32,318 nucleotides of DNA, taken from Candidatus Bathycorpusculum termitum (lineage in GTDB: Archaea; Thermoproteota; Bathyarchaeia; Bathyarchaeales; Bathycorpusculaceae). The translations under genes and the position numbers were made by a program. The stretch lies in the NCBI GenBank assembly GCA_031254875.1, contig JAIRTW010000115.1, forward strand, positions 1 to 32,318, written 5' to 3'. Below, piece by piece: positions 15,058-28,658 of this stretch (its first letter is position 1; each line of letters starts with the position of its first letter). The notes under the pieces are model-generated. The model was not told the DNA's origin. It saw only the letters and a program-made list of their open reading frames with translations, and did no database searches.

Positions 15058-16419
15058 TTATTTGAAGGCGGAGAGGTACTCGAGTTTCATGCCCCAATGC
15101 GTCAAGTCTGAGAGGTTTTCTATGCTACCTATGCTGGCGTCGATGTTGTTGTGAATGGGGTGTCTCCAGAGATTTTCGGGGACTAGGTTGAATTGTAGAG
15201 GTACTTTCGTGTTAAGATGGTACGTTTGGTTTAAATCTTTAATCAATCTGCCCGCCTGGCAGGCGTTTCGTGCGTTGGCGTAGCTTTGTAGCAGTTGGGA
15301 GGAGCCAAATACGCCTACACCATGCCAAACGGCGGCGTCTTCGGGGGAAGCCATCGAGTAGAGAAAGAACTGGGGGGAAGAAGGCATCTCAGCAAAACTG
15401 TAATCGGCGAGTTGCTCACCTGCTATATTGAATTTGTCGTCGCATACTGCTATAGCTATATCTTTTGGGTCTACACCATTTGGGTAGAGGGCTGTCGTTT
15501 TGTATGTGATGGTTGCGTTGTGGAATTTGCCGTTTTCAAAATGCAGTTTGCCTCGAGCTACTCGTTTGGAGCCATAGCCTTTTTTGGAGTGGGGTACAGT
15601 TAAAAGTGTGGTGCGTTTATTCATGCTTCGCCCCATGCACTTGTAGGCTTCCTCTATTGAGGCGTAGTCTTGGTTGCTTTCTCTTATTATGTAGTGGAGT
15701 AAGCCGTTTTTGTCTTCGGCTTTTAGGGTTGAGAGGGGCATGCGTAAACTGTATAAAGAGAGGTCCATGTCGAAAAACTTGGAAAGGTGGGGCAACTGTT
15801 GGTACTTGATTGAATCTACAAAATCAAGATAAGAGCTCCCGCTTGAGTTGAGTGTTTCAGAGATTAAGTCCGTTTCTTTTTTTGAAATCAGCGAACCGGT
15901 ATATTTCTTGGTGTATGCTTCATCGATTTTTAGCCCCTCAGTTGTGGCGTTTGCGGCGGGAATTGCGCTTTGTCCGCTGTCTATGATGGATTGTTTGAGG
16001 GGATTCATAGAGTAACGGTTGAGTTCAACATCGTCAGTGTTTAACAGAAAAGGCACGATATAGCCCTTTGGAGGTTTTTTAAGTGCCTCCAAGAGTGCGG
16101 CAGTATCATCTTGAGTGGGAGTGTGTAGGCCATATTCGAAGTAATAGTTGGCACATGCCGCAAGCATACGGATTCCAATGATTCCTTGGACTTCCTCAAC
16201 GGTGAGCTGGGGATTGGCGTATTCGACAGACCCGCGGAGATAAAACTGTTCATCCTCAAAGGGTACCGATATTTTTTTGCCGTTAACATATTGAAACAGG
16301 GTAACCTTGCGGTTTAGGCTCTGCCCCTTCACAGCCAAGACGCCTTCAACAATCTTTTTCACTGTAGAAAAAGATGATGCTAAAAAATCCTCAAGCAAAA
16401 ATTTACAGTAATCTTCCAT
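15058..16419 (-). CDS. Unknown 453-residue protein
   Basis: I recognise no family. The protein is soluble in appearance, with mixed alpha/beta composition. Visible segments are a helical N-terminus (1-30), an acidic strand-rich region near 40-70 (ISVPFEDEQFYLRGSVEY), an alanine-rich helix, and a second half with short hydrophobic strands and Ser/Asn-rich loops. It starts only three bases after the stop of the acetyltransferase gene and is followed closely by the zincin-like gene, so all three are likely co-transcribed and co-translated. No signal peptide or membrane helix is evident. It could be a substrate, partner or scaffold of its operon neighbours; nothing in the sequence decides this. 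Confidence 0.7.
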   Translation of the reverse strand: MEDYCKFLLEDFLASSFSTVKKIVEGVLAVKGQSLNRKVTLFQYVNGKKISVPFEDEQFYLRGSVEYANPQLTVEEVQGIIGIRMLAACANYYFEYGLHTPTQDDTAALLEALKKPPKGYIVPFLLNTDDVELNRYSMNPLKQSIIDSGQSAIPAANATTEGLKIDEAYTKKYTGSLISKKETDLISETLNSSGSSYLDFVDSIKYQQLPHLSKFFDMDLSLYSLRMPLSTLKAEDKNGLLHYIIRESNQDYASIEEAYKCMGRSMNKRTTLLTVPHSKKGYGSKRVARGKLHFENGKFHNATITYKTTALYPNGVDPKDIAIAVCDDKFNIAGEQLADYSFAEMPSSPQFFLYSMASPEDAAVWHGVGVFGSSQLLQSYANARNACQAGRLIKDLNQTYHLNTKVPLQFNLVPENLWRHPIHNNIDASIGSIENLSDLTHWGMKLEYLSAFK

Positions 16420-16422
16420 AAA

Positions 16423-17262
16423 TTATCCACGTTCTAAAGATTCAGCGAGATATATACAATTTTTTGCGGGGTTTTTCCCTAAAAACATTCTTGAAACAAA
16501 AAAGTCTTTTCTAAAGCCAACCTCAAAAAATAGGCCCAAGAGAACGGGATCATTTTTGGGGATCACGGTGTACACACTTTTTGCCTCTAGTTCGGTTAGC
16601 ACTGATTTAACAAGAGAAAGGGCTATATCACTTCTTTGTGGCTGGCAGATTAAGGGTCCAATCCATGCGGTCTTCTCGTAAACTGTAGCGGCAACATACC
16701 CCAAGATTTTGCTGTCTTCGGTTACATAGCAACTTGTGTTGGTTTCATCGAGGAGGATGGATTCAAGCAGTTTCTGCCGGTTGCCGCCAAAAAAACAGTT
16801 GTCAAATCTGACTATGGCAGGCAACTCAGATTTATCGATTCGGGGCAAAGATTTTGCGCTAACAGGGGGAAGGTTTGGAGTGTGGAGAACAGAGAAGTCT
16901 ATGTCAGGTCTAAAGCCTAATCCGTTATAGAAGCGTAAAAGATGAGGGTAGGCATAGAGCCCGATGGTTTCTACGTTTTTAGTGTTCAGATAGTTTACTG
17001 CGTGAGTGACAAGTGCGCTTCCTGCGCCCCTTTTACGGTATTCTTCTTTAACAACGAGGTTACCAAACCAACCGACTTTACCATAACTAATACAGGTAGC
17101 TATGCCCACACATTTGGCGTCATCAAGTAGAAGAAAACAGCCTCCAGATTCCAATGAAGCCATAAATATGAAATCTTCATCCGCCATATTCCAGTTCATA
17201 GTGTTAGCTAATTCCACAGCAAAACCATAATCGGACTCGGAGAGCGGTTTGATCTCAAACAT
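16423..17262 (-). CDS. Two-domain GNAT acetyltransferase
   Basis: 279 residues: an N-terminal GNAT domain (1-135) with the acetyl-CoA binding loop EEYRKRGAGSALVTHAVNYL near 72-91, and a C-terminal second GNAT-like domain (about 145-279) of the YitH/Acetyltransf_18 sort. Substrate unknown. The gene is first of a three-gene operon. Its ATG (17260-17262) and first codons lie inside the 17-bp left repeat of the mobile element, so the element has replaced whatever lay upstream. The integrase stop is now only 33 bases before the start, on the same strand, so the gene may be read from the element. The coding frame itself is intact. Confidence 0.88.
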   Translation of the reverse strand: MFEIKPLSESDYGFAVELANTMNWNMADEDFIFMASLESGGCFLLLDDAKCVGIATCISYGKVGWFGNLVVKEEYRKRGAGSALVTHAVNYLNTKNVETIGLYAYPHLLRFYNGLGFRPDIDFSVLHTPNLPPVSAKSLPRIDKSELPAIVRFDNCFFGGNRQKLLESILLDETNTSCYVTEDSKILGYVAATVYEKTAWIGPLICQPQRSDIALSLVKSVLTELEAKSVYTVIPKNDPVLLGLFFEVGFRKDFFVSRMFLGKNPAKNCIYLAESLERG

Positions 17263-17264
17263 AC
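17248..17264. repeat. Left attachment-site repeat
   Basis: The sequence TTTGATCTCAAACATAC recurs exactly at 27650-27666. On the minus strand it reads GTATGTTTGAGATCAAA, that is the ATG and first codons (MFEIK) of the acetyltransferase. To its left the two copies share nothing; to its right similarity continues imperfectly. Confidence 0.85.
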
Positions 17265-17295
17265 CTGAAACAAACCAAACATGTACAGAGATACG

Positions 17296-18510
17296 TTATT
17301 TGCGTTTCCTATAAACTGGTTCCCCACGCTCAGTATCATAACGTATGAATTGATACCCCGCCGCTATCAATGAATCCTCGTCTTCTTTGGTTTGTGGACG
17401 CCGTACAATATACTCCTCCACTGTGAAGGTGCTGTGCTCATAGACTGCGGTAGCATTCAAATTACGATGACCCAACAGCTTCTGTACTTGTCGTATGCTT
17501 CCTGTTAACTCGTATTCGCGGGTGCCTCTCCAGTGCCTGAACGAATGTAGGGATATTTTCATAAAGTTGCTGTTCCCAGTTTTCTCTGCAAGGCGTCGGC
17601 GTACTGCACGAAAGTTATTCTGTTTTACATTATAGGGGCTAAATATGTAGCCGTCCTCTCGTTTTACAAGTTTATTTAGCATATAGATGGTTTGTTCAGT
17701 GATTCGGACTGTACGGTTTAGACTGTTCTTTTCAGCATAGTTTATGGCGGCTGTAAGTTGGTGTTTGTCAAGTTCTGTCCAGCGGATTTTGTTTGCTTCA
17801 CCAGCTCGGCAACCCGTGTCTTTGAGGACTTGTAGATAAGCGGCTAAGGTGTTGCCGCTGGCGGCTATGAGTTGGTTTAGTTCCTCCTCTGTGGGGAGAT
17901 ACTTCTGTTTGGGTTGATAGCGTCGTTTGGGTGCTGTGAAGGGTAAGTGATGTTTACGTGCGTATGCACTGTAACTGCAGATTATAGTGTAGTAGGTAGG
18001 TTCACGCCATCTTTGACGTTCAGTGTATAGTACTGTTAGGACAGATTCGGGGTTCATCAAGTCCGCGCCATACTTGACGAGTTGCTTGAGGTAGTTGATG
18101 CGGCGTTTGATGGTTTGTTCTTTTAAGCCATGTTTTTGTAGAGTCCAAGCGTAGCTTGTGAGGTAGCCATTTTGTGTTTGATGTTCGCTTGTCTGTTGCT
18201 CAGTGAGTGCTTTGTGTGTTCCTGCACCCAAGTTTTGCGTTGCATGCTCTGCTTGAGCATCTTGTTTGTTGGATGCGGCCAATAGTTCACTATCCGTTGT
18301 AGCGTTTTGTTGGCTGTTAAGGTAGTGTTTTTCACGTAAACTTATGCTTGTTGGTTGATGAGTACTGAATTTATGTCTACATGTTTGACATTGATAGCGT
18401 TGTTGCTCCCAGCCGTCTTTATGGACTCTATATCCAGCATGAACCACACGCTCACTTTTTTGACATACGGGACATATGGGTAGAGCTTGCGCTATATCAG
18501 TAGTTGTCAT
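17296..18510 (-). CDS. int: Tyrosine recombinase (integrase) with N-terminal zinc finger
   Basis: 404 residues. An N-terminal four-Cys finger (Cys13, Cys16, Cys41, Cys44; CPVC and CQTC) resembles those of IS1-type InsA proteins and many archaeal integrases. A polar linker (about 55-110) leads to a SAM-like core-binding domain (115-190) and the catalytic domain (200-370). Candidate active-site residues are Arg235 (DTGCRAGEA), Lys261, His322 and Arg325 (HSFRH), His348 (GHRN) and nucleophile Tyr357 (AVYEHS), a complete set. A clear GGAGG lies 8 bases before the ATG, 32 bases after the helicase stop. It should catalyse integration and excision between the 17-bp repeats. The ending YRKRK matters for the relic near 27.7 kb. 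Confidence 0.93.
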   Translation of the reverse strand: MTTTDIAQALPICPVCQKSERVVHAGYRVHKDGWEQQRYQCQTCRHKFSTHQPTSISLREKHYLNSQQNATTDSELLAASNKQDAQAEHATQNLGAGTHKALTEQQTSEHQTQNGYLTSYAWTLQKHGLKEQTIKRRINYLKQLVKYGADLMNPESVLTVLYTERQRWREPTYYTIICSYSAYARKHHLPFTAPKRRYQPKQKYLPTEEELNQLIAASGNTLAAYLQVLKDTGCRAGEANKIRWTELDKHQLTAAINYAEKNSLNRTVRITEQTIYMLNKLVKREDGYIFSPYNVKQNNFRAVRRRLAEKTGNSNFMKISLHSFRHWRGTREYELTGSIRQVQKLLGHRNLNATAVYEHSTFTVEEYIVRRPQTKEDEDSLIAAGYQFIRYDTERGEPVYRKRK

Positions 18511-18542
18511 TATAGAAGCCTCCGAAAAAATATAGGGTATGG

Positions 18543-20891
18543 CTAAGTTTGGTAGCCTATATCGCCGAACTCAGGTGATTGATGTTGTGGTGTGCCTTCT
18601 CGCCACTCACCCTGATATGACGATTTACGTGTATCAAACTCTGTTTGTGTCCAAAACCAAGGGTCTCCGCCATCGTGCGGCACAACTTCTATGCGTCCGT
18701 CAGCTTGTTTTGTCCAGGTGTAGATTTTAGGTTTAGCGAAGGGGGGAGTAAAAGTTTCTTGTTTTGTATGGGGTGTTGGTTGTGGTTCTATTGTGGGTTC
18801 CTTAAAGATTGATTGTTGTGGGTGTGGCTCTACAGGACACTCTGGGTTTATGATGTCTGGAGGCTGAGTTGTTGGTGTAATAGCTTGTTTTGTAGATTCT
18901 TTTGAATTATCAGTAACACGTGTAATATCAGTAACATCAGTGACATTAGTAACAACGGTAACAATAGAAGTTTGTTTAGCTTTAATGTTTTGTAATTTAG
19001 GAATTACACCATATTTCTTTATTATACGATTTAATTTAACTACATTAAAGTGCCAATTCACACGTGTTTTACCACTATCAACATCTCTTCTTTTTTCGCT
19101 GCAACCATTAAACCGTGTCCCTAAACGATCACCCACCTTCTTTTTAGATACAAACCCAAACTCCACCGTCTCCATAGCAGTCTTAATCTGTTTCTTCAAT
19201 TGCTTATCGTCGTATTCACCATCTAAATCGTCTTGCAAAGCATCCCAAATAGTCTCAAACCAAACATCCCCCGAACCAGCATCAACCGTCTCATTCAAGC
19301 ACTTAACGATGTGGTACTCCAAAGTTTTCTGACGTACCAACAACCGATTATTTACAGCCTGATCCATCAACCTAAACATATCATCATAACAAGATAGTTT
19401 AGAAGCTGTCTGAAGGATAGGTAACCATAACTCCTTAAACCGGCCTCGCACATTAGCCGGTAAATTAAGTTCTATAGCCGACGGAAACTTTTGTTCTTTC
19501 ACCGACAAACGATAAAGTAAAAGCTGATTACGAATGTACCGCCATCTCTCCCGGTCGACATCGTCTATGTCGCCCCAATCCTTCTCGGGGTAACCGGTAG
19601 TCATAGCGATAAAGATGCAGCGCTCGTTAAATCCCTTACATTTGTTAGGATCTTGCGCGTCCTCAGATGCGAAATATTTTAATCCGAAGCAAGGATAAAA
19701 CCGCATCTCCCGAGTGCCAGGCCCAGTTATAATACGGGGAACTTTGGCTCCCTTTTGATATCCCCCCTTATAGATAGTCATTTTGGCGTTGTCTTTATCT
19801 AAAAGGGTTAATTCGTCTTCGCAAATTGTCGGTATACAATCCTCATCCTCGTAGTACTGATAGATGTTTGCGCCATTCAAGTTTTGACCATGCAACGGCC
19901 GATAGTCAAGTTCTCGATGCAGTCCAATTGTAACGGTTTTGCCCGATTCGTTATCGCCTTCATGGTAGAGGTAGGGGGTAGAGTTTGCTTTATCCTGCAG
20001 GTAACTAAATAGTGTGCAAATTGCTTCGAGTTTAATGTATTCATCTTCTAAATCGAGGAACTTCTTAAACTCGGCATATACAAGGTCATAAAGTTCCTGC
20101 AAACTTAAAGGCGTAATTCCTGTTTGGAATTCAGGGAATTTGTATGTACCCATCATGATTTTATCAGTAATGGGAGCATACTTTTGATCGCCAAACTTGA
20201 CGTTACTATAAGTTTTAAACTCACCCTTTTGATAAACCGCAAATATTGGTTTACCGGCTAAATATATCGATTCATAATAGCCTTCTTCGCTATAACCGCA
20301 AGCCTTCATTGGGTATTGTTTTTCTTTGTCTTCCTTGTTGTCTTTTTTGTCTTGTTTTTTTATTTTAAGAATATCAGCTATAACTTCTTCGTCTTTTTGT
20401 GTGATTTGCTCCCGCGGCGGCTCAGGGAAACTTGATACTGTGACTTCTTCCACTATGGGGTTTTCTTGCTTGGTCGTTGTGGTTGCTTCGGTTGTTTGGG
20501 TCTCTTGTAATTCTTCAGTTATATTGAGGGCGTCGGCTTTATTGACATACTCTTCTCTAATCTGTTGTTCTATGGGGTTGCTTGCTTTTGCGGTTGTTAT
20601 GAATTGGAATTGTAATGATGTTTGGTTTGGGTTTGTACTGGCATCGATTAACGTTTCAGGTCGTCGGGTTTTGCTTTGTGTACGTTTGATTTGACTGCGG
20701 AGACTCTTTGGCGTTTTAAAGTTTGGGTTGGGAGGATTAATTATTTTAGACTCGTCACCCATACCTTTATTGACTACGTTTGTATCTGGATTAGTGTCTG
20801 TCTTTGAGACAGGTACTTTCATTGGGATTGCGCCGTTCTCTTGGTCGGGCCCGGCGCTTTCCTCAATTTTATTCGGTTGTGTTGGTTCCAT
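18543..20891 (-). CDS. P-loop replicative helicase-like protein of the element
   Basis: About 782 residues from the ATG at 20891 (MEPTQPNK); the frame extends to 20939 without a good ribosome site. Residues 1-190 are a polar, Thr/Glu/Lys-rich disordered tail. The ATPase core has Walker A GDNESGKT at about 312-319, a Walker B-like IPTICEDE near 353-360, and a later GPGTREMRFYPCFGLKYFASE segment, as in helicases that partner phage and plasmid primases (DUF927/DUF3631-like or SF3-like). A winged-helix-like region follows, then a VTD-repeat segment near residue 640 and a Pro/Thr-rich tail. With the upstream primase it forms a split primase-helicase. The start overlaps the zinc-ribbon gene by 23 bases. 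Confidence 0.82.
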   Translation of the reverse strand: MEPTQPNKIEESAGPDQENGAIPMKVPVSKTDTNPDTNVVNKGMGDESKIINPPNPNFKTPKSLRSQIKRTQSKTRRPETLIDASTNPNQTSLQFQFITTAKASNPIEQQIREEYVNKADALNITEELQETQTTEATTTTKQENPIVEEVTVSSFPEPPREQITQKDEEVIADILKIKKQDKKDNKEDKEKQYPMKACGYSEEGYYESIYLAGKPIFAVYQKGEFKTYSNVKFGDQKYAPITDKIMMGTYKFPEFQTGITPLSLQELYDLVYAEFKKFLDLEDEYIKLEAICTLFSYLQDKANSTPYLYHEGDNESGKTVTIGLHRELDYRPLHGQNLNGANIYQYYEDEDCIPTICEDELTLLDKDNAKMTIYKGGYQKGAKVPRIITGPGTREMRFYPCFGLKYFASEDAQDPNKCKGFNERCIFIAMTTGYPEKDWGDIDDVDRERWRYIRNQLLLYRLSVKEQKFPSAIELNLPANVRGRFKELWLPILQTASKLSCYDDMFRLMDQAVNNRLLVRQKTLEYHIVKCLNETVDAGSGDVWFETIWDALQDDLDGEYDDKQLKKQIKTAMETVEFGFVSKKKVGDRLGTRFNGCSEKRRDVDSGKTRVNWHFNVVKLNRIIKKYGVIPKLQNIKAKQTSIVTVVTNVTDVTDITRVTDNSKESTKQAITPTTQPPDIINPECPVEPHPQQSIFKEPTIEPQPTPHTKQETFTPPFAKPKIYTWTKQADGRIEVVPHDGGDPWFWTQTEFDTRKSSYQGEWREGTPQHQSPEFGDIGYQT
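18909..18962. repeat. Six 9-bp repeat units inside the helicase gene
   Basis: Six consecutive 9-mers in exact register: ATCAGTAAC, ACGTGTAAT, ATCAGTAAC, ATCAGTGAC, ATTAGTAAC, AACGGTAAC. The minus strand encodes Val-Thr-Asp-type triplets. The same 9-mer recurs in the noncoding array at 27387-27440, so the repeats may be DNA-level binding sites as well as a protein linker. Confidence 0.6.
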
Positions 20892-21045
20892 AGTTATCAA
20901 CTCTGACAAAGGGTTTTCGTATAGGTGCACCATATGCATGTTGGCATCTGGGGCACCTTCGGGGGTTGCTTATTCGGCTTATTGATAGGTAGCCGCATCG
21001 CTCACATTTGTGTGCGATTGTTTTTATTTCGATTGTTGTAGACAT
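20869..21045 (-). CDS. Small zinc-ribbon protein
   Basis: 58 residues from the ATG at 21045; an in-frame GTG at 21054 is possible but the ATG has GAAGTGA five bases upstream. Two Cys pairs, CERC and CPRC, separated by about 17 residues (HKCERCGYLSISRISNPRRCPRC) form a classic zinc ribbon, followed by a basic AYGAPIRKPF tail. Such proteins bind DNA, RNA or protein partners. It is the first gene after the promoter/operator at about 21.13 kb and overlaps the helicase start by 23 bases in another frame, so it probably shares a transcript with the helicase and integrase. A role in replication or regulation is inferred from position only. Confidence 0.7.
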   Translation of the reverse strand: MSTTIEIKTIAHKCERCGYLSISRISNPRRCPRCQHAYGAPIRKPFVRVDNYGTNTTE

Positions 21046-21122
21046 TTGTTTCACTTCTTTTTTTGGGTCGTGTGTAGGGTTAGTCCTTTCACACTATTAC
21101 AAATACTTGTGATATCGCTCTT

Positions 21123-21151
21123 TATAAGCTTATATTCTAATTTAGAATATA
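21123..21151 (-). promoter_or_regulatory. Promoter with two palindromes upstream of the zinc ribbon-helicase-integrase operon
   Basis: A 12-bp palindrome TATAAGCTTATA (21123-21134) is followed by a perfect inverted repeat with arms TATATTCTAA (21131-21140) and TTAGAATATA (21142-21151) around one base. On the minus strand it offers a TATA box (CTTATAAA) about 80 bases before the zinc-ribbon start. The element AAGCTTATAA is also found before the rightward operon at 23623-23632. A dimeric repressor such as one of the element's RHH proteins could bind here. Confidence 0.55.
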
Positions 21152-21222
21152 CCACACTCCAAACCACAAACACCATCAAACTTTATATAAGTATATACTT
21201 TATTGCATCGACCGCAACACAC

Positions 21223-21244
21223 AAAAAAAGAAAGAAAGAAAAGA
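21223..21244 (-). terminator. T-rich terminator after the primase gene
   Basis: The minus strand reads T-rich (TTCTTTCTTTC and a run of seven T) starting directly after the primase stop. This suits archaeal termination and, with the promoter just downstream, separates the primase operon from the zinc ribbon-helicase-integrase operon. Confidence 0.5.
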
Positions 21245-21245
21245 A

Positions 21246-22331
21246 CTAAACCACCAAACCATCCAACTTGAGCGCTTTCAACCCACCAATCCCCAGCAAC
21301 TCATCGACGGGCTTAACACACACAAAATACTGATGATACACAACATCGAGAAACTCTTGACAATCCCCCAATGTTGCACCCGAACGTTCACAAAGCACCT
21401 CCACCACACGACAACAAGAGCGATAATCTATACCTCTCTTGCGAAAGTAGCCGCATAACGCCAACACAAACCTTTGCCGCTGACCCACAACAAACCCATC
21501 ACCCCAAAAATCAACAACACATTTTATACCCCTATCAGTTAACCCGCCGGCAACCTTTGGTGCTTGAAATATCTGAGTGTTCACTCTTGTATATCTCTGA
21601 CTTAATCTTTGCTCCGTACATTGCCGCAGTAGACTTATCGATGGCCAATCCAAAGTTAAACCCTGCTTATTCCACAAAAGATCAATAGGTTGCGGCGCCC
21701 AGCTATCCAAATCTAACATGCGGCTCCACAACTTGTGCTTCTGATTAAAGCCAAACGGCAACTTGCAGTACTTTCCATAAGGCGTATGCTTAGTGACACC
21801 TTCCCCATCAGGGAACAATTCCACCTTATCAGGGTGCCCGTTTTTGATGTAGCCGCATTCTTTTAGAATCTTTAACCCCCACGTTTTAATGTACTTGGCG
21901 GGGTAGGCTTCATCGAATAGCACCCAAAGATGATAATTGTCAGATGGGTAACGTGATGCCTCTAAAACAATGTGTTTGTCTCTGATCTTGAGTTTCTCAC
22001 GCAAATAACTCAGCACTTTACTACAAGCTTGCTTAGCAGACTCATCTTTGAAGTGGTCATCATCGAAGTCAAAAACCATCACACGCACCGTGCTGTCGTT
22101 ACAAATTATTGGCACACCCACAGTTTGCAAGCCTGTTAAATGCCGCAACAACAAAGCATCAGAGACTGGGACATCCACGCCTTTCGTGTCATTTGAGTAG
22201 TCTTTGACGAGCCTGAACTTGTGTTCAGGGTTTTGTGTCCAATAGCAATCTTGGCGGTGTACAAAGAGTTGTTTGAGGAGGTCTAAGGTTCTGTTTAGGT
22301 TGCCGTTTGGATGTGAAGGTTGAATTGACAT
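21246..22331 (-). CDS. Archaeo-eukaryotic primase (AEP superfamily)
   Basis: 361 residues from the ATG at 22331, chosen because it sits in a TAATG overlap with the previous stop and follows GGTGGAG at about 8 bases. The AEP catalytic signs are visible: VMVFDFDDDH with metal-binding acidic residues at about 87-92, then SDNYHLWVLF with the motif-2 His near 134, and KVELFPDGEG...YCKLPFGFN near 170-195, as in primases of plasmid, phage and TOTE-type systems. A C-terminal helical PriCT-like region (GQRQRFVLALCGYFRKRGI) follows. It likely makes primers, and possibly extends DNA, at the element's origin, with the separately encoded helicase downstream. Confidence 0.85.
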   Translation of the reverse strand: MSIQPSHPNGNLNRTLDLLKQLFVHRQDCYWTQNPEHKFRLVKDYSNDTKGVDVPVSDALLLRHLTGLQTVGVPIICNDSTVRVMVFDFDDDHFKDESAKQACSKVLSYLREKLKIRDKHIVLEASRYPSDNYHLWVLFDEAYPAKYIKTWGLKILKECGYIKNGHPDKVELFPDGEGVTKHTPYGKYCKLPFGFNQKHKLWSRMLDLDSWAPQPIDLLWNKQGLTLDWPSISLLRQCTEQRLSQRYTRVNTQIFQAPKVAGGLTDRGIKCVVDFWGDGFVVGQRQRFVLALCGYFRKRGIDYRSCCRVVEVLCERSGATLGDCQEFLDVVYHQYFVCVKPVDELLGIGGLKALKLDGLVV

Positions 22332-22810
22332 TAGCTCTCCACCGCCATTCGTTGTCGTTTGCATAATCTTAAGCGCCGCACAACACACCCGCGGCTGGTG
22401 CTATACTCATAAAGATAACAAACTTCGCTATACCACCGGTCAGCCTCCACCGTGAACCGTACTGAAGTTAGGAAGTCATAGAACCAAAAGCTATCCTTAA
22501 ACCTGGGGATATTTACTGATTTATAGTCACAGGCGTAAACGTATGCTTGATCGTAGGGTTTATGACATACAATGTTCCAGGGGAGGTTGTGGAGTTTCTT
22601 TTCTGGGATGTAGGTTTTGATTTCGCATCGGTTGTAGCGGCAGGTGTGTAGCGTGTGTTCTCGGCATTGTGTTCTTGTGCATACAAAGCTTTTCAAATCA
22701 AGAACATACTTATGCTCGCAACTGGATTTAGAGAGGGGGGTGGGAGACTTTCGTCTCTTAGGCGGAGTTGGTTGTTGTGTTGGGTAGTGGCGAACGATTA
22801 TTGACTGCAT
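22331..22810 (-). CDS. Cys-rich unknown protein of the replication operon
   Basis: 159 residues, no family recognised. After a Pro/Lys-rich N-terminus comes a Cys/His cluster (SSCEHKY, CTRTQC, EHTLHTCRYNRC at about 30-64), suggesting one or two structural zinc sites. Residues 70-130 are rich in Trp, Tyr and Phe (DSFWFYDFLTSVRF). The C-terminus is basic and Arg-rich. Its ATG overlaps the stop of the preceding gene (TGATG) and its stop overlaps the primase ATG (TAATG), so it is translationally embedded in the primase operon. That placement and the zinc-like cluster make a nucleic-acid-binding replication accessory role reasonable, but this is inference. Confidence 0.68.
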   Translation of the reverse strand: MQSIIVRHYPTQQPTPPKRRKSPTPLSKSSCEHKYVLDLKSFVCTRTQCREHTLHTCRYNRCEIKTYIPEKKLHNLPWNIVCHKPYDQAYVYACDYKSVNIPRFKDSFWFYDFLTSVRFTVEADRWYSEVCYLYEYSTSRGCVVRRLRLCKRQRMAVES

Positions 22811-23298
22811 CAGGCAATGCCAACCTTATAGTTGGTTTTTTTGATTGGTTTACGGCAGTACAATGTTGGTTCTGTGGATTTGAATGGAATTGTCCACCAA
22901 CAGAACCCAAGCCTGAACTCACCGACGTATGACTGTAACAGCAGGCGTGTGGCTTCGTTAAGTGACGTGGCTGTGATTTGTTCACAAGCTTCCCCTTTAC
23001 TGGTTTTAGATGGCTGCCAGGGGAGGCTGTTGACATCAATGACAGAGTTGTTTGTGTCATTTAGGGCTGGCTTTTCTGCTGTAAAAACGTCAGGTGTCGA
23101 TGATGGTTTAGCATACCCGGGCTTTAGTGATGCGGCGACTTCGATTTGCTGAGTTGTAGCTTGCCATGTTAGGTAGGTTGGGTCTATGCTGTTAATGAGG
23201 TTTGACAGCTGTTCGGCGTGTTCGACTGTGATGTCAAGTTGTCGTTTGAGGCGGTCGAGTAGTACCGATTGACTTATCTGAGTGACTTGTGTAGTCAT
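22810..23298 (-). CDS. Unknown 162-residue protein of the replication operon
   Basis: The start is the ATG at 23298 (MTTQVTQISQS), which overlaps the stop of the RHH gene by four bases (ATGA); a longer frame to 23322 would extend into it. Residues 1-55 look helical and amphipathic (LLDRLKRQLDITVEHAEQLSNLI). The middle is polar, and the end has TSLNEATRLLLQSYVGEF followed by an aromatic GFCWWTIPF strand and a Lys-rich tail. No family recognised. As second gene after the RHH regulator and upstream of the Cys-rich protein and primase, it is probably part of replication control. Confidence 0.65.
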   Translation of the reverse strand: MTTQVTQISQSVLLDRLKRQLDITVEHAEQLSNLINSIDPTYLTWQATTQQIEVAASLKPGYAKPSSTPDVFTAEKPALNDTNNSVIDVNSLPWQPSKTSKGEACEQITATSLNEATRLLLQSYVGEFRLGFCWWTIPFKSTEPTLYCRKPIKKTNYKVGIA

Positions 23299-23492
23299 GG
23301 GTTGTTCACCTCGTGTGAGCATTGCAGGGAGGATGCGAGCTCTACTTTTGCGGGTGAGGCTTGCATTCTCTCAAGTTTCTCTTGGATGGCTTCTCTGAGC
23401 CAGTCAGCTTTTGATGTCTGTCTGGTTTGGTCGATTTGTTTTACAATTTCAGTGTCGACCGCTACTGAGATTGTTGTTTTGTATGCTTTCAT
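23295..23492 (-). CDS. Ribbon-helix-helix regulator (CopG-like)
   Basis: 65 residues with the RHH layout: a short strand (KTTISVAVDTEIV), helix 1 (VKQIDQTRQTS), turn, and helix 2 (KADWLREAIQEKLERM). Such proteins bind DNA as dimers through the paired strand, often repressing their own operons, copy-control genes or antitoxin genes. It heads the leftward replication operon (RHH, unknown, Cys-rich, primase) and faces a second RHH-containing gene across a 164-base palindrome-rich spacer. Self-repression and copy-number control are the natural guesses; no toxin partner is evident. Confidence 0.82.
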   Translation of the reverse strand: MKAYKTTISVAVDTEIVKQIDQTRQTSKADWLREAIQEKLERMQASPAKVELASSLQCSHEVNNP

Positions 23493-23656
23493 AGGATATC
23501 ATTTATAGTTTATAGTAGACGTGTTATTTATATGTCCCTGTTTGTGGCATATGCCAAATCACTTCCCTGAGCAACGTTGCGTGTGCCACACAACCCATCA
23601 ACACCCAAGTATCAAACGATTTAAGCTTATAACGCACAATAAGATAATATCTTACT
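23493..23656. promoter_or_regulatory. Divergent control region between the two RHH genes
   Basis: This 164-base spacer drives the two arms of the element. It holds TATA-like repeats (TTTATAG twice, 23502-23515) for the leftward operon and AAGCTTATAA (23623-23632) 27 bases before the rightward ATG, the distance expected for a leaderless transcript. Palindromes are TGGCATATGCCA (23545-23556), GCAACGTTGC (23571-23580), GTGTGCCACAC (23581-23591) and TAAGAT-AAT-ATCTTA (23640-23654), the last ending just before the ATG. RHH binding and autoregulation are likely; an origin is also possible. Confidence 0.65.
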
Positions 23657-24208
23657 ATGACAAAACAAACAAAAACACAAACACACGGCTCAGTGAAGTA
23701 CACCGTCACCGTACCCCAACACATGCATAAAGAACTCAACAGCCACATCAAAGCATACAAAGAAACCAACATAAGCAAAGTCTTCCAAGATGCACTTAAC
23801 AGTTACCTTGTCAACGCACGCATCAATGAAGTCAAGCGTTCACACAGCCGAATCACTCAAGACCAGGTTCCCGCATCCACCAACCCACCCTATCGTAATG
23901 ATGGCAAAGACTTTGTACAACCCAACGGCAAATGGTACCCCGACAACGTCACCGCACCCACTTCGTTTGGTGGTCCGCAAACCGGCGGCACATTCTTCAT
24001 TGACGCTGAAGCTAAACAACGCATGCAAGCTCAAGAGGAACGTAACTTGCGATCTCAAATCATTCATTGTCAAGACGAGTACAACCAAGCAGAAGCACTC
24101 TACAAACAAGGCAAAGTGGACTATCAATATTGGACAGCCGCACAGGAATTGTATGAAGCATCAATGATGTTGTTGCAGGCTAAACTCAAAGCACTACGAG
24201 GCAACTAA
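23657..24208 (+). CDS. Ribbon-helix-helix protein with a helical C-terminal extension
   Basis: 183 residues. Residues 12-60 form an RHH domain (KYTVTVPQHMHKELNSHIKAYKE then NISKVFQDALNSYLVN). A Pro/Gly-rich linker with KWYPDN and SFGGPQTGGTFF (about 75-115) leads to a Glu/Gln-rich coiled-coil region (about 118-180, AKQRMQAQEERNLRSQI). The coil may mediate oligomerisation or contacts with other small proteins of the operon, several of which have similar helices. There is no ribosome site before the ATG, and a TATA box at 27 bases supports leaderless expression. As first gene of the rightward operon it may regulate that operon or partition the element; the latter is speculation. Confidence 0.78.
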   Translation: MTKQTKTQTHGSVKYTVTVPQHMHKELNSHIKAYKETNISKVFQDALNSYLVNARINEVKRSHSRITQDQVPASTNPPYRNDGKDFVQPNGKWYPDNVTAPTSFGGPQTGGTFFIDAEAKQRMQAQEERNLRSQIIHCQDEYNQAEALYKQGKVDYQYWTAAQELYEASMMLLQAKLKALRGN

Positions 24209-24209
24209 G

Positions 24210-24353
24210 ATGACTGACATAAAGCAAGGCTGGAAAACCAAAGATACACAAGGCACACGCTGGAACCCAACAGATGTTACAGGCTGTCCCACTTGCGGTG
24301 GTCCTAAGAATGATTGGAAAATGTTGATGCCGCAGGATAAACGGAGCTGTTAA
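24210..24353 (+). CDS. 47-residue protein with a CPTCGG knuckle
   Basis: A short frame beginning one base after the stop of the RHH/coil gene and ending one base before the next ATG. The peptide contains GWKTKDTQGTRWNP and then GCPTCGGPKNDW, one zinc-knuckle-like Cys pair with a further Cys at the very end (KRSC). Its perfect fit between two genes, with no free space, argues that it is translated. No family recognised. It may bind zinc as a dimer or only in complex with a partner. Confidence 0.6.
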   Translation: MTDIKQGWKTKDTQGTRWNPTDVTGCPTCGGPKNDWKMLMPQDKRSC

Positions 24354-24354
24354 A

Positions 24355-24543
24355 ATGACGAATTATTACTATCACCGCAACCACGCGCCCCTCTCACAAA
24401 TAGAACGCGAGTTAGAGACCGCGTTAGCCAACGCTGAAGAAGCTTTTTGGCAGAGTAAATGTTTGCTGCATCAAGTGTGTGTTCAATGCTTTGACAGTGA
24501 AAAGCAGGCGTATTACTATAAAATAGACTCTCGGAGCAGATAA
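24355..24543 (+). CDS. Small helical protein, unknown
   Basis: 62 residues, with GGAG about 8 bases before the ATG. A Tyr/His-rich start (TNYYYHRNHAP) is followed by an amphipathic helix (SQIERELETALANAEEAFWQSK) and a Cys-containing segment (LLHQVCVQCFDSEK). No family recognised. It lies within the rightward small-gene operon, with one base on each side separating it from its neighbours. Confidence 0.58.
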   Translation: MTNYYYHRNHAPLSQIERELETALANAEEAFWQSKCLLHQVCVQCFDSEKQAYYYKIDSRSR

Positions 24544-24544
24544 C

Positions 24545-24967
24545 ATGTTATCATTAAAGAGACAGAAACCGAAAGAGCAAACCAATGTTTACGCCATGCG
24601 CAACCCCTCAGACATGATACACCCCGTCCTCAACAACGCCGCAAACACATGCCTATTCATAAACTGCAAACACAACCTTGGCAACCCCGGACTTAATGAT
24701 ACTCAGCATCGTATCCCTGAATGTGAAATGTGTCATTATTTACCTTCTATGTACATTCATGACCAGAGTCGAGCGGACACATATGTTTCAGCGGGGGAAG
24801 CATATGCTCAAGGTATAGTTGAGGCATCGCGTAGACAGGCTGAGCTGGTTCAGAAAGAACTTGAAGCTATACAGAGCAAGATGGATGTAGTGTTAGAGGG
24901 AAAGATGGAAGCGTTCCTCAAACGACGAGCCGCTAAAGGCAACAAAACAGGGCTTGAGGGCACCTAA
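24545..24967 (+). CDS. Unknown 140-residue protein with Cys cluster and coiled coil
   Basis: GGAG lies about 8 bases before the ATG. After a basic N-terminus, residues 36-64 hold a Cys/His set (CLFINCKHNLGNPG and IPECEMCHY) that could coordinate one zinc. From about 80 the chain is a long helix rich in Glu, Gln and Lys (ASRRQAELVQKELEAIQSK), probably a coiled coil, ending in a basic tail. No family recognised. The combination of zinc site and coil recurs in neighbouring genes, suggesting that these small proteins work together. Confidence 0.62.
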   Translation: MLSLKRQKPKEQTNVYAMRNPSDMIHPVLNNAANTCLFINCKHNLGNPGLNDTQHRIPECEMCHYLPSMYIHDQSRADTYVSAGEAYAQGIVEASRRQAELVQKELEAIQSKMDVVLEGKMEAFLKRRAAKGNKTGLEGT

Positions 24968-24969
24968 CC

Positions 24970-25179
24970 TTGTTTCGCAAAGCCGAAGTTAAAGCCAAAG
25001 AAGCACGCCGCAATCAATACCACTTTGCTGTCTTTGAAGTAGAGCGTTTGCAGAGGGATCTTAACATATTAACCGTGGGGTACCAGGCACAGAAACAGGC
25101 GTATGAACAGTCTATCGATGCAAGCCAAGCTATGATTAATTATCTCAAAGTAAAGTACCCCGCGGAGTTCGAGCCATAG
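24970..25179 (+). CDS. Small coiled-coil protein, unknown
   Basis: 69 residues from a TTG two bases after the previous stop. Nearly all is helix: a basic N-terminus (FRKAEVKAKEARRNQY), a heptad-like middle (FEVERLQRDLNILTVGYQAQKQAYEQS), and an aromatic/acidic end. No family recognised. It resembles the helical part of the preceding protein in composition and may pair with it. Confidence 0.55.
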   Translation: MFRKAEVKAKEARRNQYHFAVFEVERLQRDLNILTVGYQAQKQAYEQSIDASQAMINYLKVKYPAEFEP

Positions 25180-25181
25180 AC

Positions 25182-25364
25182 ATGTCAAAGTTAACGGCTT
25201 ATAACCCCTACTCTTTTAGTGACAAGAAGCCATGTAACAATGTACAGAAACAGCCCAGGTTTTATGTTGCGGATCCAAATCATAGAGAGTTAAAGTGTCA
25301 ATCGCGTGTTCCCGGTGAAGTGAAGTGTTACATTATACACAAACGGAAGCCGCGCAATGAGTAG
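25182..25364 (+). CDS. Small basic protein, unknown
   Basis: 60 residues, two bases after the previous stop. It is rich in Lys, Arg, Asn and Tyr with three Cys (KKPCNNV, LKCQSRV, VKCYII). Its end overlaps the next gene by eight bases. No family recognised; the composition would suit nucleic-acid binding. Support is mainly its place in the chain. Confidence 0.48.
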   Translation: MSKLTAYNPYSFSDKKPCNNVQKQPRFYVADPNHRELKCQSRVPGEVKCYIIHKRKPRNE

Positions 25365-25578
25365 TAACTGTTACGTGGATGAACCCTGCATGCTTAAAGC
25401 ATGCTGTCCATGTGGCCGCTTCCTTACGTTGCCGCTTGAGATTCAAAGACGCCGCCGGCTTAGTCATGTGATGCGGACACGCAACATCATAGTAACGTTA
25501 GATGTAGAGACTCATATTGTTACAGCTGAGGAGTTGCCGCGGCAACGACGAGCTCAACAAAGGAAGAGCCAACAATGA
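25357..25578 (+). CDS. Small Cys-rich basic protein, unknown
   Basis: 73 residues. The N-terminus has five Cys in the first 20 residues (SSNCYVDEPCMLKACCPCGRF), a possible zinc site, followed by an Arg-rich segment (LEIQRRRRLSHVMRTR), a short beta region (NIIVTLDVETHIVTAEEL) and a basic Gln/Arg tail. It overlaps the previous gene by eight bases and the next by four (ATGA), so coupled translation is likely. No family recognised. Confidence 0.55.
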   Translation: MSSNCYVDEPCMLKACCPCGRFLTLPLEIQRRRRLSHVMRTRNIIVTLDVETHIVTAEELPRQRRAQQRKSQQ

Positions 25579-25853
25579 GTGACAGTAAGTGTACTTATAA
25601 TACAGCTAAACTCGACCGAGAAAGCTTAAAACAGTATTTACAACGCACCATAAGCTTCTGTGACCAAAAAATCCATGCTCCAAACCGGGTTGAGTTGAAG
25701 GATAAGTTTGAAGCTGGACGTTTGCTTGCAACATGTATTGGTCATTATACGGCACTCATTAAGGATGCTCAGTTGGATGATCATGAGCGGCGCTTAGCTA
25801 AGCTTGAAGAGCAACCTAAAGAGAACAAGGCAGTGGGGGATGAAACGTATTAG
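25575..25853 (+). CDS. Small helical protein, unknown
   Basis: 92 residues from the ATG in a 4-base overlap with the previous gene. It is predominantly helical (KLDRESLKQYLQRTISFCDQKI, then VELKDKFEAGRLLATCIGHYTALIKDAQ) and ends in a charged coil (DDHERRLAKLEEQ). No family recognised. Its end overlaps the start chosen for the next gene by 14 bases. Confidence 0.58.
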   Translation: MSDSKCTYNTAKLDRESLKQYLQRTISFCDQKIHAPNRVELKDKFEAGRLLATCIGHYTALIKDAQLDDHERRLAKLEEQPKENKAVGDETY

Positions 25854-26544
25854 TCACAAAACCAGATTAGCCAAGTTAGAGCATAAACAGGGTGTTAAAC
25901 CCCTGTCTGTCTATAGTCAGAGCTTACCGTTTAAGGAGTGGCTTACGTATCAGCATCAGCAAAGCACATGTAACTTATTCCGGCTGAAACTCGCCCGCTT
26001 CAAACAGAAACTCACTGAATGCAGTGACTGGACAGACAGTACTGAAGACTATGAAGTAATACTTAGCTACCTCAGATATGCTGAAGACAATCATGCTTTA
26101 CGCTGGAGCACCAAGTTGTTTCCCTGCATGCATAGCCTTGATCAAACATCATCTTTAATGATGCTTTACTATCATCAAACCAGCACCGACAATGCAGAGC
26201 ATCCGGCACATGTTAAACCCGTCACATGTAAGGATAGCGACATCAGCCACACTGACCATTCAGGCACGCCGTTAGCGTGTACAGCCGCAAACTTTGATGT
26301 GTGTAGCAGTGAATGCTGCCGTTCAGAGACGCTTAGCATGATATGTGCGCGGCCTCAGAATCCTTGCGGCTTCAATAATCTTGCTGTGTACCCGGCGGAG
26401 TGTGTTTGTTTCAGTCAACCGTTACCCAAATGGTATAGGTTGGTTGAGGCTGAGGTTTGGCGAGTCACAGCAGGCAGGGAAGGTGATATGACGCCGAACC
26501 GGCGGTTGCGGGCATCTAAATGTAGTGTTGATCAGAATTATTAG
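25840..26544 (+). CDS. Unknown Cys/His-rich protein, last of the small-gene operon
   Basis: 234 residues from the ATG at 25840 (MKRISHKTRLAKLEHKQ); the frame is open to 25804 but the later start overlaps its neighbour less. The N-terminal 100 residues are helical and basic (FKEWLTYQHQQSTCNLFRLKLARFKQKL). The second half is rich in Cys and His (VCSSECCRSE, CARPQNPCGF, YPAECVCF), suggesting several zinc sites, and ends in an Arg-rich segment. No family recognised. It closes the tightly packed rightward operon; 344 bases without a gene follow. Confidence 0.6.
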   Translation: MKRISHKTRLAKLEHKQGVKPLSVYSQSLPFKEWLTYQHQQSTCNLFRLKLARFKQKLTECSDWTDSTEDYEVILSYLRYAEDNHALRWSTKLFPCMHSLDQTSSLMMLYYHQTSTDNAEHPAHVKPVTCKDSDISHTDHSGTPLACTAANFDVCSSECCRSETLSMICARPQNPCGFNNLAVYPAECVCFSQPLPKWYRLVEAEVWRVTAGREGDMTPNRRLRASKCSVDQNY

Positions 26545-26888
26545 TTACTTGGCTGGTGTTCTCTACGGTGCCTCAAAGTGGACACTTCACTATGTTCATC
26601 CATTCGACTTTGGGGAATCCGGGCACGAACATCAGCCAAACACCTTTCTTTAACATTTAGGCTGGCTTTTCTATGATAGAGTTCATGAGGTGACTGTGTT
26701 TGTTGATGTGTGATTGGCTGTGTGATTATGAAGTGTTAAGTTTACTGTGTGAGTTGTGGCTCTTAACGCAGTGAGCGTAGAGAGTGTATGTTGTGTATGA
26801 CACGCGACATACACTATGAGAGTGTAGTAGAGCAAAAACTTAAATCCACAAGCCAGGAAATGTCTGGTTAGATAGAGAGGGAAAACTT
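26545..26888. other. Intergenic region inside the element
   Basis: No gene seen. The region contains a 9-bp inverted repeat near 26.8 kb, listed separately, and just before 26889 a purine-rich GAGAGGG that can serve as ribosome site for the membrane protein. A promoter for that gene should lie near 26830-26860, but no clear TATA box was picked out. Confidence 0.4.
26783..26815. repeat. 9-bp inverted repeat before the membrane protein gene
   Basis: The arms AGTGTATGT (26783-26791) and ACATACACT (26807-26815) are exact reverse complements around 15 bases. It could be a hairpin ending the small-gene operon or an operator for the next gene. Confidence 0.4.
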
Positions 26889-27200
26889 GTGGATAAAGAA
26901 GAACAGAAATTCTATGAGGCACAGGCAAAAGAACAGAAGCTTTTATTGAGAATTCAAACAGAAGTACAGATAGCACAAGCCGCATTTTTGGCGTATCTTG
27001 CTTTAACTGCGGCGTTTACTTTCGGCATCTGGCAGATTGCAGCGGCTTTTCCTACAGGAACTGGAATACTCATAACAGTTCTTAGGTATATGGCGGGCGG
27101 GATACTTTTTGCGTTGACTTTAGGGGCGGCTTATTCAACTTATATGAATTATTGTAAAATGAACCGGTTACGTGTAAACCTGAATAACTTATGTTTATGA
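26889..27200 (+). CDS. Small two-helix membrane protein of the element
   Basis: 103 residues from a GTG preceded by GAGAGGG. A charged cytosolic helix (DKEEQKFYEAQAKEQKLLLRIQTEVQ) leads into two hydrophobic segments at about 30-52 and 60-84, then a basic C-terminal tail. No family recognised. Small membrane proteins of this form are common in archaeal plasmids and viruses, where they may act in membrane anchoring, lysis or exclusion, but nothing here decides between these. It is the last gene before the right end of the element. Confidence 0.62.
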   Translation: MDKEEQKFYEAQAKEQKLLLRIQTEVQIAQAAFLAYLALTAAFTFGIWQIAAAFPTGTGILITVLRYMAGGILFALTLGAAYSTYMNYCKMNRLRVNLNNLCL

Positions 27201-27261
27201 CGGGGGAGAAACGCTTAGATGGTGTTTTATGGATAAGTTTTCAGTAACAAGAGTGTAAAGG

Positions 27262-27440
27262 GTAACATCGGTGATGTCAGTAACTTCAGTAACCACCCTG
27301 AGTTACCGATATCTAAAGTGTTTTACAGTCCGATTTAAGCTTGTTTCTATGAATAGAACTGATAAACAACTTGGTTTGGCTGTTTTGTTACCGATGTTAC
27401 TGATGTTACTGATGTTACTGATAAAACCGATATTACTGAT
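27262..27440. repeat. Facing arrays of 9-bp repeats (candidate iterons)
   Basis: The right array, 27387-27440, has six 9-mers in register: GTTACCGAT, GTTACTGAT three times, AAACCGAT with one extra A in front, and ATTACTGAT. The left array, 27262-27297, is four units with the same period in the opposite sense (GTAACATCG, GTGATGTCA, GTAACTTCA, GTAACCACC), plus single units at 27240-27248 and 27302-27310. Between them lie about 75 bases of AT-rich sequence. This is the layout of a replication origin recognised by an initiator protein. The region does not look coding. Confidence 0.65.
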
Positions 27441-27475
27441 ACTTCGTATTTTTTCTTTCTTCCCTATTCTACAGC

Positions 27476-27551
27476 AAAAAAGCCTATACTATAACGTATA
27501 CTATACGTTGTATTAAAAAAGCCTATATTGATATTTCTCGTGTGTATACAC
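27476..27551. repeat. Repeat and palindrome cluster near the right end of the element
   Basis: A 13-bp direct repeat, AAAAAAGCCTATA, occurs at 27476-27488 and 27515-27527. Between the copies is a perfect inverted repeat with arms AACGTATA (27493-27500) and TATACGTT (27502-27509) around one base. A 10-bp palindrome GTGTATACAC follows at 27542-27551. These may be integrase arm sites, an AT-rich unwinding zone or regulator sites. No gene is seen from 27201 to the repeat at 27650. Confidence 0.5.
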
Positions 27552-27649
27552 GCTCGGACTGTATAGAGTGGTATAGAAAAAAGGGTGAGTTAGGATGCAG
27601 GAACAATATTGTTTAGGGAGTCAACCGAGTACATAGACAATCAGCATGT

Positions 27650-27666
27650 TTTGATCTCAAACATAC
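27650..27666. repeat. Right attachment-site repeat
   Basis: Exact copy of the 17-bp repeat at 17248-17264. On the minus strand it again reads as ATG plus the first codons of the acetyltransferase (MFEIK) but then runs into a stop a few codons later, as expected where the gene's start was duplicated by integration. Confidence 0.85.
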
Positions 27667-27693
27667 ACAAACAAACTAACATGCACTATTGGA

Positions 27694-27840
27694 TTATTTA
27701 CGTTTCCGATACTGGTTCACAAGTATTTGTGCAAACATATAAGCATACCCGCGTTTTTTAAGCGCGGGATATTTTGGATGTTGTATATGTAGGTAACAAC
27801 AAAGGATTTTATTTTCCAGTTCCCAACGGGTATTGATTTG
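27694..27840 (-). pseudogene. Relic of the 3' end of a second integrase
   Basis: A minus-strand frame without a start codon, opened after a stop at 27841-27843, encodes 48 codons ending ALKKRGYAYMFAQ...NQYRKRK. The final YRKRK and stop match the end of the intact integrase (GEPVYRKRK), and the DNA around both stops and the following acetyltransferase-like ATG aligns over about 75 bases with small gaps. A GY-aromatic segment 18-20 residues from the end is shared as well. The stop lies 29 bases before the duplicated ATG, against 33 in the left copy. This fits the scar of an earlier related element; the upstream part of that integrase is not recognisable. Confidence 0.5.
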
Positions 27841-27884
27841 TCATCTGTTTCTAAAATGGGAACAGTTAGGAGACGAAGTATAGG

Positions 27885-28658
27885 TTGTTTTTTGAGAAAA
27901 AAATCAGGAAACGTATTATCATTCTACCAGTGGTCTGGGTTATGCTACTGGTATTGGTGTTATCGGCCATATCACTGCTTGAAGAAACATTGACCAATCA
28001 TCCCGATAGAAATACACTTACAAGTTTAGGCTGGGCAGGATACATTGTTTCAGGCAGTTATAACCAACGGGAAGTCACCGGCATCAGTGCTTCATGGACT
28101 GTGCCGCAGGTTAATACTGGCGCAGGAGATGGTTACTCTTCAGCTTGGGTGGGCATCGGCGGACAGCTGGATAAAACTTTGATTCAAATTGGAACAGAAC
28201 ACAACGTTCACCGGGGAACGGAAATGTATTATGCATGGTATGAGATGCTCCCCGATTACTCAATTCGAATCGAGAATTTCACATTGGCACCAGGCGATAG
28301 CGTGACCGCGTCGATAACGCTTGTAGATTCAGAAACCAACGAATGGAACATGCAGATAATGGATCTAACCAACGGTAAAACCTTTGATCGAAACTTTGTC
28401 TACAACTCAACCCGATCTTCGGGTGAATGGATTGTGGAACGAGCAATGGTGAATGGACAAATCTCGTCGCTTTCAGATTTTGGATCCATAACCTTCAGCG
28501 ACTGTCAGGTGGATGTAAGAAACGATAAAGGCGTCATCAGCAACTTTACGCACTCCCGAGTTCATATGACAAACCAGCAGTTCAGCACCTTGGCTTCTGC
28601 CTCAATACTTAATAACAATGGCGAAGGCTTCACCGTTAGTTACGCCACACGCAACTAA
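27885..28658 (+). CDS. Membrane-anchored G1 (eqolisin-like) glutamic peptidase
   Basis: 257 residues: a basic N-terminus, one membrane helix at about 11-31 (signal anchor or cleaved signal), then a beta-rich domain with the G1 family pattern: GWAGYIVSG, VTGISASWTVP (65-74), SSAWVGIGGQ with the likely catalytic Gln94, LIQIGTEH, YYAWYEMLPD, and SSGEWIVERA (178-187), where a Glu of EWIVE is the expected catalytic partner. Eqolisins are mostly known as acid-active fungal and bacterial secreted peptidases. Here the domain would face outside the cell. The start is a TTG with AGGAG about 12 bases upstream. The gene lies in the chromosome just right of the element. Confidence 0.82.
   Translation: MFFEKKIRKRIIILPVVWVMLLVLVLSAISLLEETLTNHPDRNTLTSLGWAGYIVSGSYNQREVTGISASWTVPQVNTGAGDGYSSAWVGIGGQLDKTLIQIGTEHNVHRGTEMYYAWYEMLPDYSIRIENFTLAPGDSVTASITLVDSETNEWNMQIMDLTNGKTFDRNFVYNSTRSSGEWIVERAMVNGQISSLSDFGSITFSDCQVDVRNDKGVISNFTHSRVHMTNQQFSTLASASILNNNGEGFTVSYATRN

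Follow-up and report, generated by a model that had tools for sequence, protein, structure and literature searches.

An integrated, probably plasmid-like 10.4-kb element at an acetyltransferase start codon in Candidatus Bathycorpusculum termitum

Contig JAIRTW010000115.1 of Candidatus Bathycorpusculum termitum (assembly GCA_031254875.1), a stretch of 32,318 nucleotides referred to here as the window, carries an insert of 10.4 kb in archaeal chromosomal DNA that is flanked by direct repeats of 17 bp. We find that this insert is a real element whose attachment (att) sites are the identical 17-bp repeats, and it is likely an integrating plasmid-like replicon with its own replication genes, comparable to the cryptic integrated elements (CIEs) of Thaumarchaeota. 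Its broad kind is known—i.e. an integrated element with replication genes of its own and no recognisable virus genes; the insertion site is unusual and most of the proteins are unfamiliar. The borders and the target gene are:

17248..17264, no strand: attL, exact 17-bp repeat, with a core-like single copy in insert-free relatives.
27650..27666, no strand: attR, the second exact copy of the 17-bp repeat.
16423..17262, minus strand: target gene, GNAT acetyltransferase of 279 amino acids (aa), frame open over its full length, PF18014 (E 1.7e-15).

Both copies read TTTGATCTCAAACATAC and agree in 17/17 positions, as an earlier note on this DNA had claimed. With up to one mismatch allowed, this 17-mer occurs at 2 places in the source genome as assembled (2.3 Mb, 93% complete), attL and attR only; when the 11.4-kb region was simulated 300 times with a first-order Markov model, a repeated 17-mer of any sequence appeared in 3 of the runs. 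Specifically, attL comprises two bases ahead of the ATG, the start codon, and codons 2–5 of the acetyltransferase (on the minus strand), an overlap that is absent from the earlier note. At the other end, attR and the 4 preceding bases form inverted 6-bp arms (ATGTTT/AAACAT) with a 7-bp spacer, TGATCTC (27646–27664). Tyrosine recombinase sites are expected to have arms that enclose 6 to 8 bp. A search of 17000–28000 against Rfam at gathering scores gives no match.

Among 61 genomes, the window's own included, 35 have acetyltransferase matches, and 20 of these matches were compared as loci of 2.5 to 3.8 kb (the window itself and 19 relatives), with a base-by-base alignment of 10 acetyltransferase loci. 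The locus without the insert that was sought in related genomes is found in three genomes of the same genus (G004, G014, and G028), in which the acetyltransferase and its upstream host DNA are contiguous. Each of the three has a single core-like sequence, with 3 mismatches to the 17-mer, that is followed by host DNA; these loci lack the insert, which contradicts the absence of any empty site that the earlier note had named as a refutation. Similarity to the left flank of the window extends to the core in the four relatives closest to it. Part of the right flank, on the peptidase A4 side, occurs within the same locus in 11 of the 19 relatives and not in the other 8. An integrase beside the acetyltransferase yields no significant match in the 19 relative loci (best E 2.3; flanks of up to 1.5 kb). 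G023, tried as a genome with a full element at this locus, was dropped, its contig stopping about 700 bp past the gene with no integrase found.

Starting at attL, the first genes of the element are:

17296..18510, minus strand: tyrosine-recombinase integrase, 404 aa, 3' end towards attL, PF00589 (E 7e-20) and phrog_1 (E 4.7e-28).
18543..20939, minus strand: AAA+ replicative helicase by relatives and predicted fold, 798 aa, conserved core at about residues 200–660.
20869..21054, minus strand: zinc-ribbon-like protein, 61 aa, with sub-threshold Pfam matches to zinc ribbons and weak relatives at three loci of the genus.
21246..22388, minus strand: archaeo-eukaryotic primase (AEP-TOTE/PrimPol), 380 aa, PF22548 (E 8.4e-15).

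Integrase and primase, both named in the earlier note, are clear by Pfam; they are the 2 of 17 element proteins that pass its curated cut-offs and the only ones below E 0.001 in PHROGs, where a small regulator candidate described below stands just at 0.001. By eye, the integrase has the residues R, HxxR, H, and Y, which we take to be the catalytic set, and its N-terminus holds a candidate zinc ribbon with weak matches. PADLOC, applied to 9 of the 17 element proteins and one host protein, returns PrimPol matches of the primase and nothing else. The description of a split primase-helicase is right because the helicase is a separate gene, with the small zinc-ribbon-like open reading frame (ORF) between the two. 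The helicase falls below every Pfam cut-off and has no match in PHROGs, in NCBIfam (scanned with 10 of the 17 element proteins), or, at the sequence level, among solved structures (best E 0.21). Its structure model (pLDDT 88) matches the folds of MCM, the SaPI5 primase-helicase, PriRep1, and the NrS-1 and SCCmec Cch helicases, with Foldseek TM-scores over the whole model of 0.2–0.4 among the matches listed, and on this modelled AAA+ fold the product is a replicative helicase. It shares with these proteins the predicted fold of replicative helicases but differs in having no sequence-level structure match and in its own family motifs, GDNE[SC]GK[TS] and ILEDE. As such, the element appears to carry a replicative helicase family that is unnamed in the libraries searched.

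A Thaumarchaeota survey describes CIEs as having an integrase, short att repeats (survey median 17 bp), no recognised capsid or conjugation genes, and sizes mostly below 20 kb; several have a primase and a helicase, and CalSub-E1 has both as separate genes (PMC6563490). The present element resembles them in its integrase gene and short att repeats, which were checked against the empty site, and in its primase and helicase, and no virus structural or conjugation gene is recognisable at the profile level among its 17 proteins (Pfam and PHROGs), in line with the earlier note. That note had called the element integrative, which holds, and had left its class open, which holds in part only: the class is less open because a replication-plus-integration module lacking capsid and conjugation genes fits the CIE category (PMC6563490) and siblings exist in the same family. 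It differs from CIEs in belonging to another archaeal class and in a helicase family that has no library match. Several points count against a plasmid-like replicon: inverted arms of at least 5 bp like those of attR are not found at attL; overlapping (circular) ends are present in 0 of 22 whole small contigs, with no excised circle among them; no replication initiator besides helicase and primase is recognised among the element proteins; and 12 proteins are without assigned function.

Archaeal viruses often have rows of small orphan genes next to replication genes, a feature that we count in favor of a provirus or virus satellite whose capsid is too diverged for recognition, e.g. in the plus-strand row at 23657–26544 or in the 103-aa protein beyond it. 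Consistent with such a provirus, the helicase model finds its best viral matches in replication proteins of phages (E 6e-16 and 3e-15), an IMG/VR contig carries one sibling helicase, and an ORF from the sibling loci has a very strong match to phrog_26785 (E 5.7e-240), a virus family without assigned function; PMC10848311 also describes a spindle-shaped provirus with a tyrosine integrase in Bathyarchaeia, Huangdivirus, and reports 56 Bathyarchaeia virus contigs, 54 of them with capsid genes. However, 0 of the 17 element proteins have a structural match in Pfam or PHROGs, and the families matched by 50 sibling-loci ORFs (81 in total, 50 scanned) hold no capsid among the best 25 of the 29 from Pfam or the best 25 of the 47 from PHROGs, the families listed including a "tail needle" match of one protein. 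Helicase and primase also find no tblastn match in 50,697 phage records, and overall we regard a provirus as improbable. The helicase has no match in plasmid records either. The IMG/VR contig (L123; 33.6 kb, of which 14 kb were seen) is the sole confirmed one with the helicase family, and its ORFs were scanned within the pooled sibling set; single-protein scans of IMG/VR, which reach close relatives only, give no confirmed relative of the primase or of the 159-aa, 183-aa, and largest orphans.

A mobilisable or conjugative integrative element (IME or ICE) would agree with the likeness of CIE and ICE replication modules in Thaumarchaeota (PMC6563490), but relaxase, coupling-protein, and VirB4-like matches are found for 0 of 17 proteins (Pfam and PHROGs) and the size is just 10.4 kb, which makes this the least credible of the alternatives. 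Alternatively, the insert might be what remains of an integrated element that has decayed and lost its mobility, and both the probable older scar at the same site and the lack of a second copy by DNA in 300 genomes could be read in this way. We hold such decay to be very unlikely, given that the att copies are identical, the integrase, helicase, and primase frames are open, and the presumed catalytic residues of the integrase are in place. Specifically, the DNA of the whole element has a match at E ≤0.01 in 18 of 300 related genomes (own included), and the best one outside its own genome falls in the helicase gene and spans 76 bp at 78%. No CRISPR spacers are seen among these matches by eye, 2 first-look candidates being scored per genome, so that spacers could be missed. 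A casposon was ruled out (tyrosine integrase and direct repeats, no Cas1 match), as was an element with a suicidal integrase of the SSV/pTN3 type, the integrase being whole (17296–18510), with att 31 bp past its stop and no PF16795 match.

The site of insertion sets the element apart from those of the survey. The acetyltransferase ATG lies 33 bp past the integrase stop, in the same direction and with its reading frame unchanged; the DNA ahead of the gene is the integrase end of the element. Because the core carries the start codon at this distance from the integrase, the acetyltransferase stays whole and is placed behind the element's row of genes. Among all element classes of the Thaumarchaeota survey, 14 of 68 mapped insertions are in protein genes and these are described as 3'-distal (PMC6563490), which differs from the present insertion, whose core takes in the start codon at the gene's 5' end. 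A likeness concerns pTN3-like integrases, which insert 5' of their target and leave the restored gene behind the integrase side (PMC8371274); the present target, however, is a protein gene and not a tRNA gene, and the integrase is unsplit and without a PF16795 match. SXT (prfC) and IMEVchUSA3 (dusA) likewise target protein genes at their 5' ends, but they are bacterial and exchange the N-terminus, with a new dusA promoter shown (PMC8409611), whereas the core of the present element holds the first five codons and no conjugation gene is recognised.

Beyond the right repeat lies a further feature, which is absent from the earlier note:

27667..27771, minus strand: probable integrase 3'-end remnant of an earlier element, frame reading ...RGYAYMFAQILVNQYRKRK-stop.

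These 105 bp past attR are non-host-like, host DNA restarts at 27772, and where the remnant lies the window lacks about 60 bp of the host sequence present in G004. On the minus strand it ends in YRKRK-stop, and of 29 integrase C-termini 23 end in RKRK, including 5 in YRKRK. A 56-column DNA alignment with the left inner end of the element scores 37 (2000 shuffles, ≤32). Judged from these likenesses, the segment is probably the scar of an earlier element, and the site was probably used before. It could instead be a chance likeness or an unrelated insertion, to which other results lend weight: against a profile of the 29 C-termini its frame scores a low 7.4 bits, compared with 60.3 for the integrase end of the element itself, one of 3000 shuffled frames is higher at 10.6 bits, and the shuffles preserved base content alone. 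In G023, the DNA past the core is non-host and somewhat resembles the left inner end, with 4 of 2000 shuffles as good; compared with the window's remnant, 660 of 2000 shuffles are as good and the profile gives ≤0.9 bits, so a remnant in G023 is doubtful and a mere hint of re-use.

Arrays of short repeats, which the earlier note had described as iteron-like, are present at two places:

27238..27445, no strand: candidate replication origin, two opposed 9-bp arrays (27238–27302 and 27385–27445).
18904..18964, no strand: 9-bp array within the helicase reading frame, where it codes for VTx repeats (repeat analysis).

Units in all three arrays are near GTTACTGAT, and 15 of the 19 sites of this sequence in the window (≤1 mismatch) are inside the element, 2 of these 15 outside the arrays. 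The array in the helicase gene is 84% complementary over 61 bp to 27385–27445; a similar VTx triplet is found in 1 of 24 sibling helicase ORFs (L082), and a literature search for VTDVTD with archaea found none. The opposed arrays are possibly an origin, where replication might start.

Taken together, these features outline how the element may work. The integrase would recombine attP with attB at the acetyltransferase start codon; on the excised circle, primase and AAA+ helicase would start replication, possibly at the opposed arrays; and in the integrated state the acetyltransferase would lie directly behind the primase-helicase-integrase row, possibly transcribed together with it as the final gene. 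We tentatively suggest, with somewhat less than even confidence, that an archaeal integrase is directed to a protein gene's start codon and captures the intact acetyltransferase into the element's row, at a site that successive elements have re-used. If so, this would be a protein-gene counterpart of pTN3-like 5' tRNA integration, and the element could gain a regulatory hold on its host. Insertion at a 5' end with a new promoter is described for dusA and SXT/prfC (PMC8409611) and, for tRNA genes, with pTN3-like integrases (PMC8371274). At the start-codon att site, promoter exchange by an integrase of an archaeon could be put to the test. The review on pTN3-like integrases also raises the question of dyad symmetry at protein-gene att sites (PMC8371274), to which this site adds one example, a dyad enclosing 7 bp on one side.

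Analyses of 120 genomes reveal integrases of the broad family in 95, helicase relatives in 26, and primase matches in 10 (own included in each). Two siblings have att repeats at tRNA genes: L105 (10.85 kb, 22-bp repeats, tRNA-Phe) with adjacent primase and helicase, and L109 (8.2 kb, 24-bp repeats, intron-containing tRNA-Ser) with a primase fused to the helicase, both keeping the order primase, helicase, integrase, att. Other integrases adjoin tRNA-Cys, -His, -Asn, and -Val. Among 12 loci with helicase and integrase, several on short contigs, att repeats of at least 13 bp comprise these two tRNA repeats and one meaningless 13-bp match, with none at nine; down to 12 bp, six further stretches give one 13-bp match, far from the integrase end. 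Five of the top six integrase matches outside the own genome were looked at for tRNA genes: L159 lies at tRNA-Val, and a search without introns found no tRNA beside the integrase at L160, L095, L161, and L162. Att repeats are not found at L160 and L095, and L161 and L162 allow no att test, their contigs stopping just behind the integrase. Given the tRNA-Val at L159 and no att repeats for L160 and L095, 5' protein-gene targeting cannot be claimed as a trait of this clade. Bathycorpusculum genomes come from termite guts, peat soils, sediments, and digesters (PMC10684969). Besides viruses, the element and its siblings suggest a second layer of mobile DNA, plasmid-like in kind, in a widespread archaeal family. 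Literature found on Bathyarchaeia mobile elements consists of viruses and general papers, none plasmid-like, in a search that left most subscription papers outside.

The remaining features of the element are:

22331..22810, minus strand: orphan ORF, 159 aa, overlapping the primase gene start, 0 families in Pfam, PHROGs, NCBIfam, and PADLOC.
22810..23322, minus strand: orphan ORF, 170 aa, 0 families in the same four libraries.
23295..23492, minus strand: ribbon-helix-helix (RHH)-like regulator candidate, 65 aa, RHH_1 (E 0.017, below cut-off) and phrog_17095 (E 0.001).
23657..24208, plus strand: orphan, 183 aa, RHH-like by eye only, no RHH profile match, 0 PHROGs families.
24210..24353, plus strand: packed small ORF, 47 aa.
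24355..24543, plus strand: packed small ORF, 62 aa.
24545..24967, plus strand: packed small ORF, 140 aa.
24970..25179, plus strand: packed small ORF, 69 aa.
25182..25364, plus strand: packed small ORF, 60 aa.
25357..26544, plus strand: small ORFs of 73 aa, 92 aa (25575–25853), and about 234 aa (25840–26544; ATG at 25840 preferred over the listed TTG at 25804).
26889..27200, plus strand: ORF of 103 aa, two hydrophobic stretches by eye.

The minus strand thus reads, towards attL, RHH-like candidate, 170-aa orphan, 159-aa orphan, primase, zinc-ribbon-like ORF, helicase, and integrase, and the plus strand carries the 183-aa protein, near-overlapping small ORFs up to 26544, and then the 103-aa protein. 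Twelve of the 17 element proteins are orphans or nearly so. The earlier note had proposed two RHH proteins, of which the one at 23295–23492 finds weak backing and the one at 23657–24208 none. The five packed ORFs (24210–25364) have no Pfam or PHROGs family at E ≤0.001, the 103-aa protein has no family at E 0.001 and no relative in 120 genomes, and the structure model of the largest orphan (234 aa) is unusable (pLDDT 39). Searching the 120 genomes with 14 small or unfamiliar proteins as one query gives weak matches in 5 besides the own genome—i.e. 3 for the zinc ribbon and 2 for the 92-aa protein—and an ORF search of 57 loci finds relatives of the same two proteins.

Adjoining the acetyltransferase, a 453-aa protein (15058–16419) is 84% identical in G023 and has no Pfam, PHROGs, or PADLOC match. 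On the other side, the G004 alignment skips from about 28646 to about 31774, over about 150 bp of L033, and the downstream ATPase gene (28961–31495, P-type by eye) seems absent from this place in G004. The weak relatives of the 92-aa protein lie at two same-genus loci (L147:2018–4445 and L148:7692–9984), where, by eye, neighbouring genes look like ones for ParB-like, P-loop ATPase, and GNAT proteins, possibly another mobile cassette.

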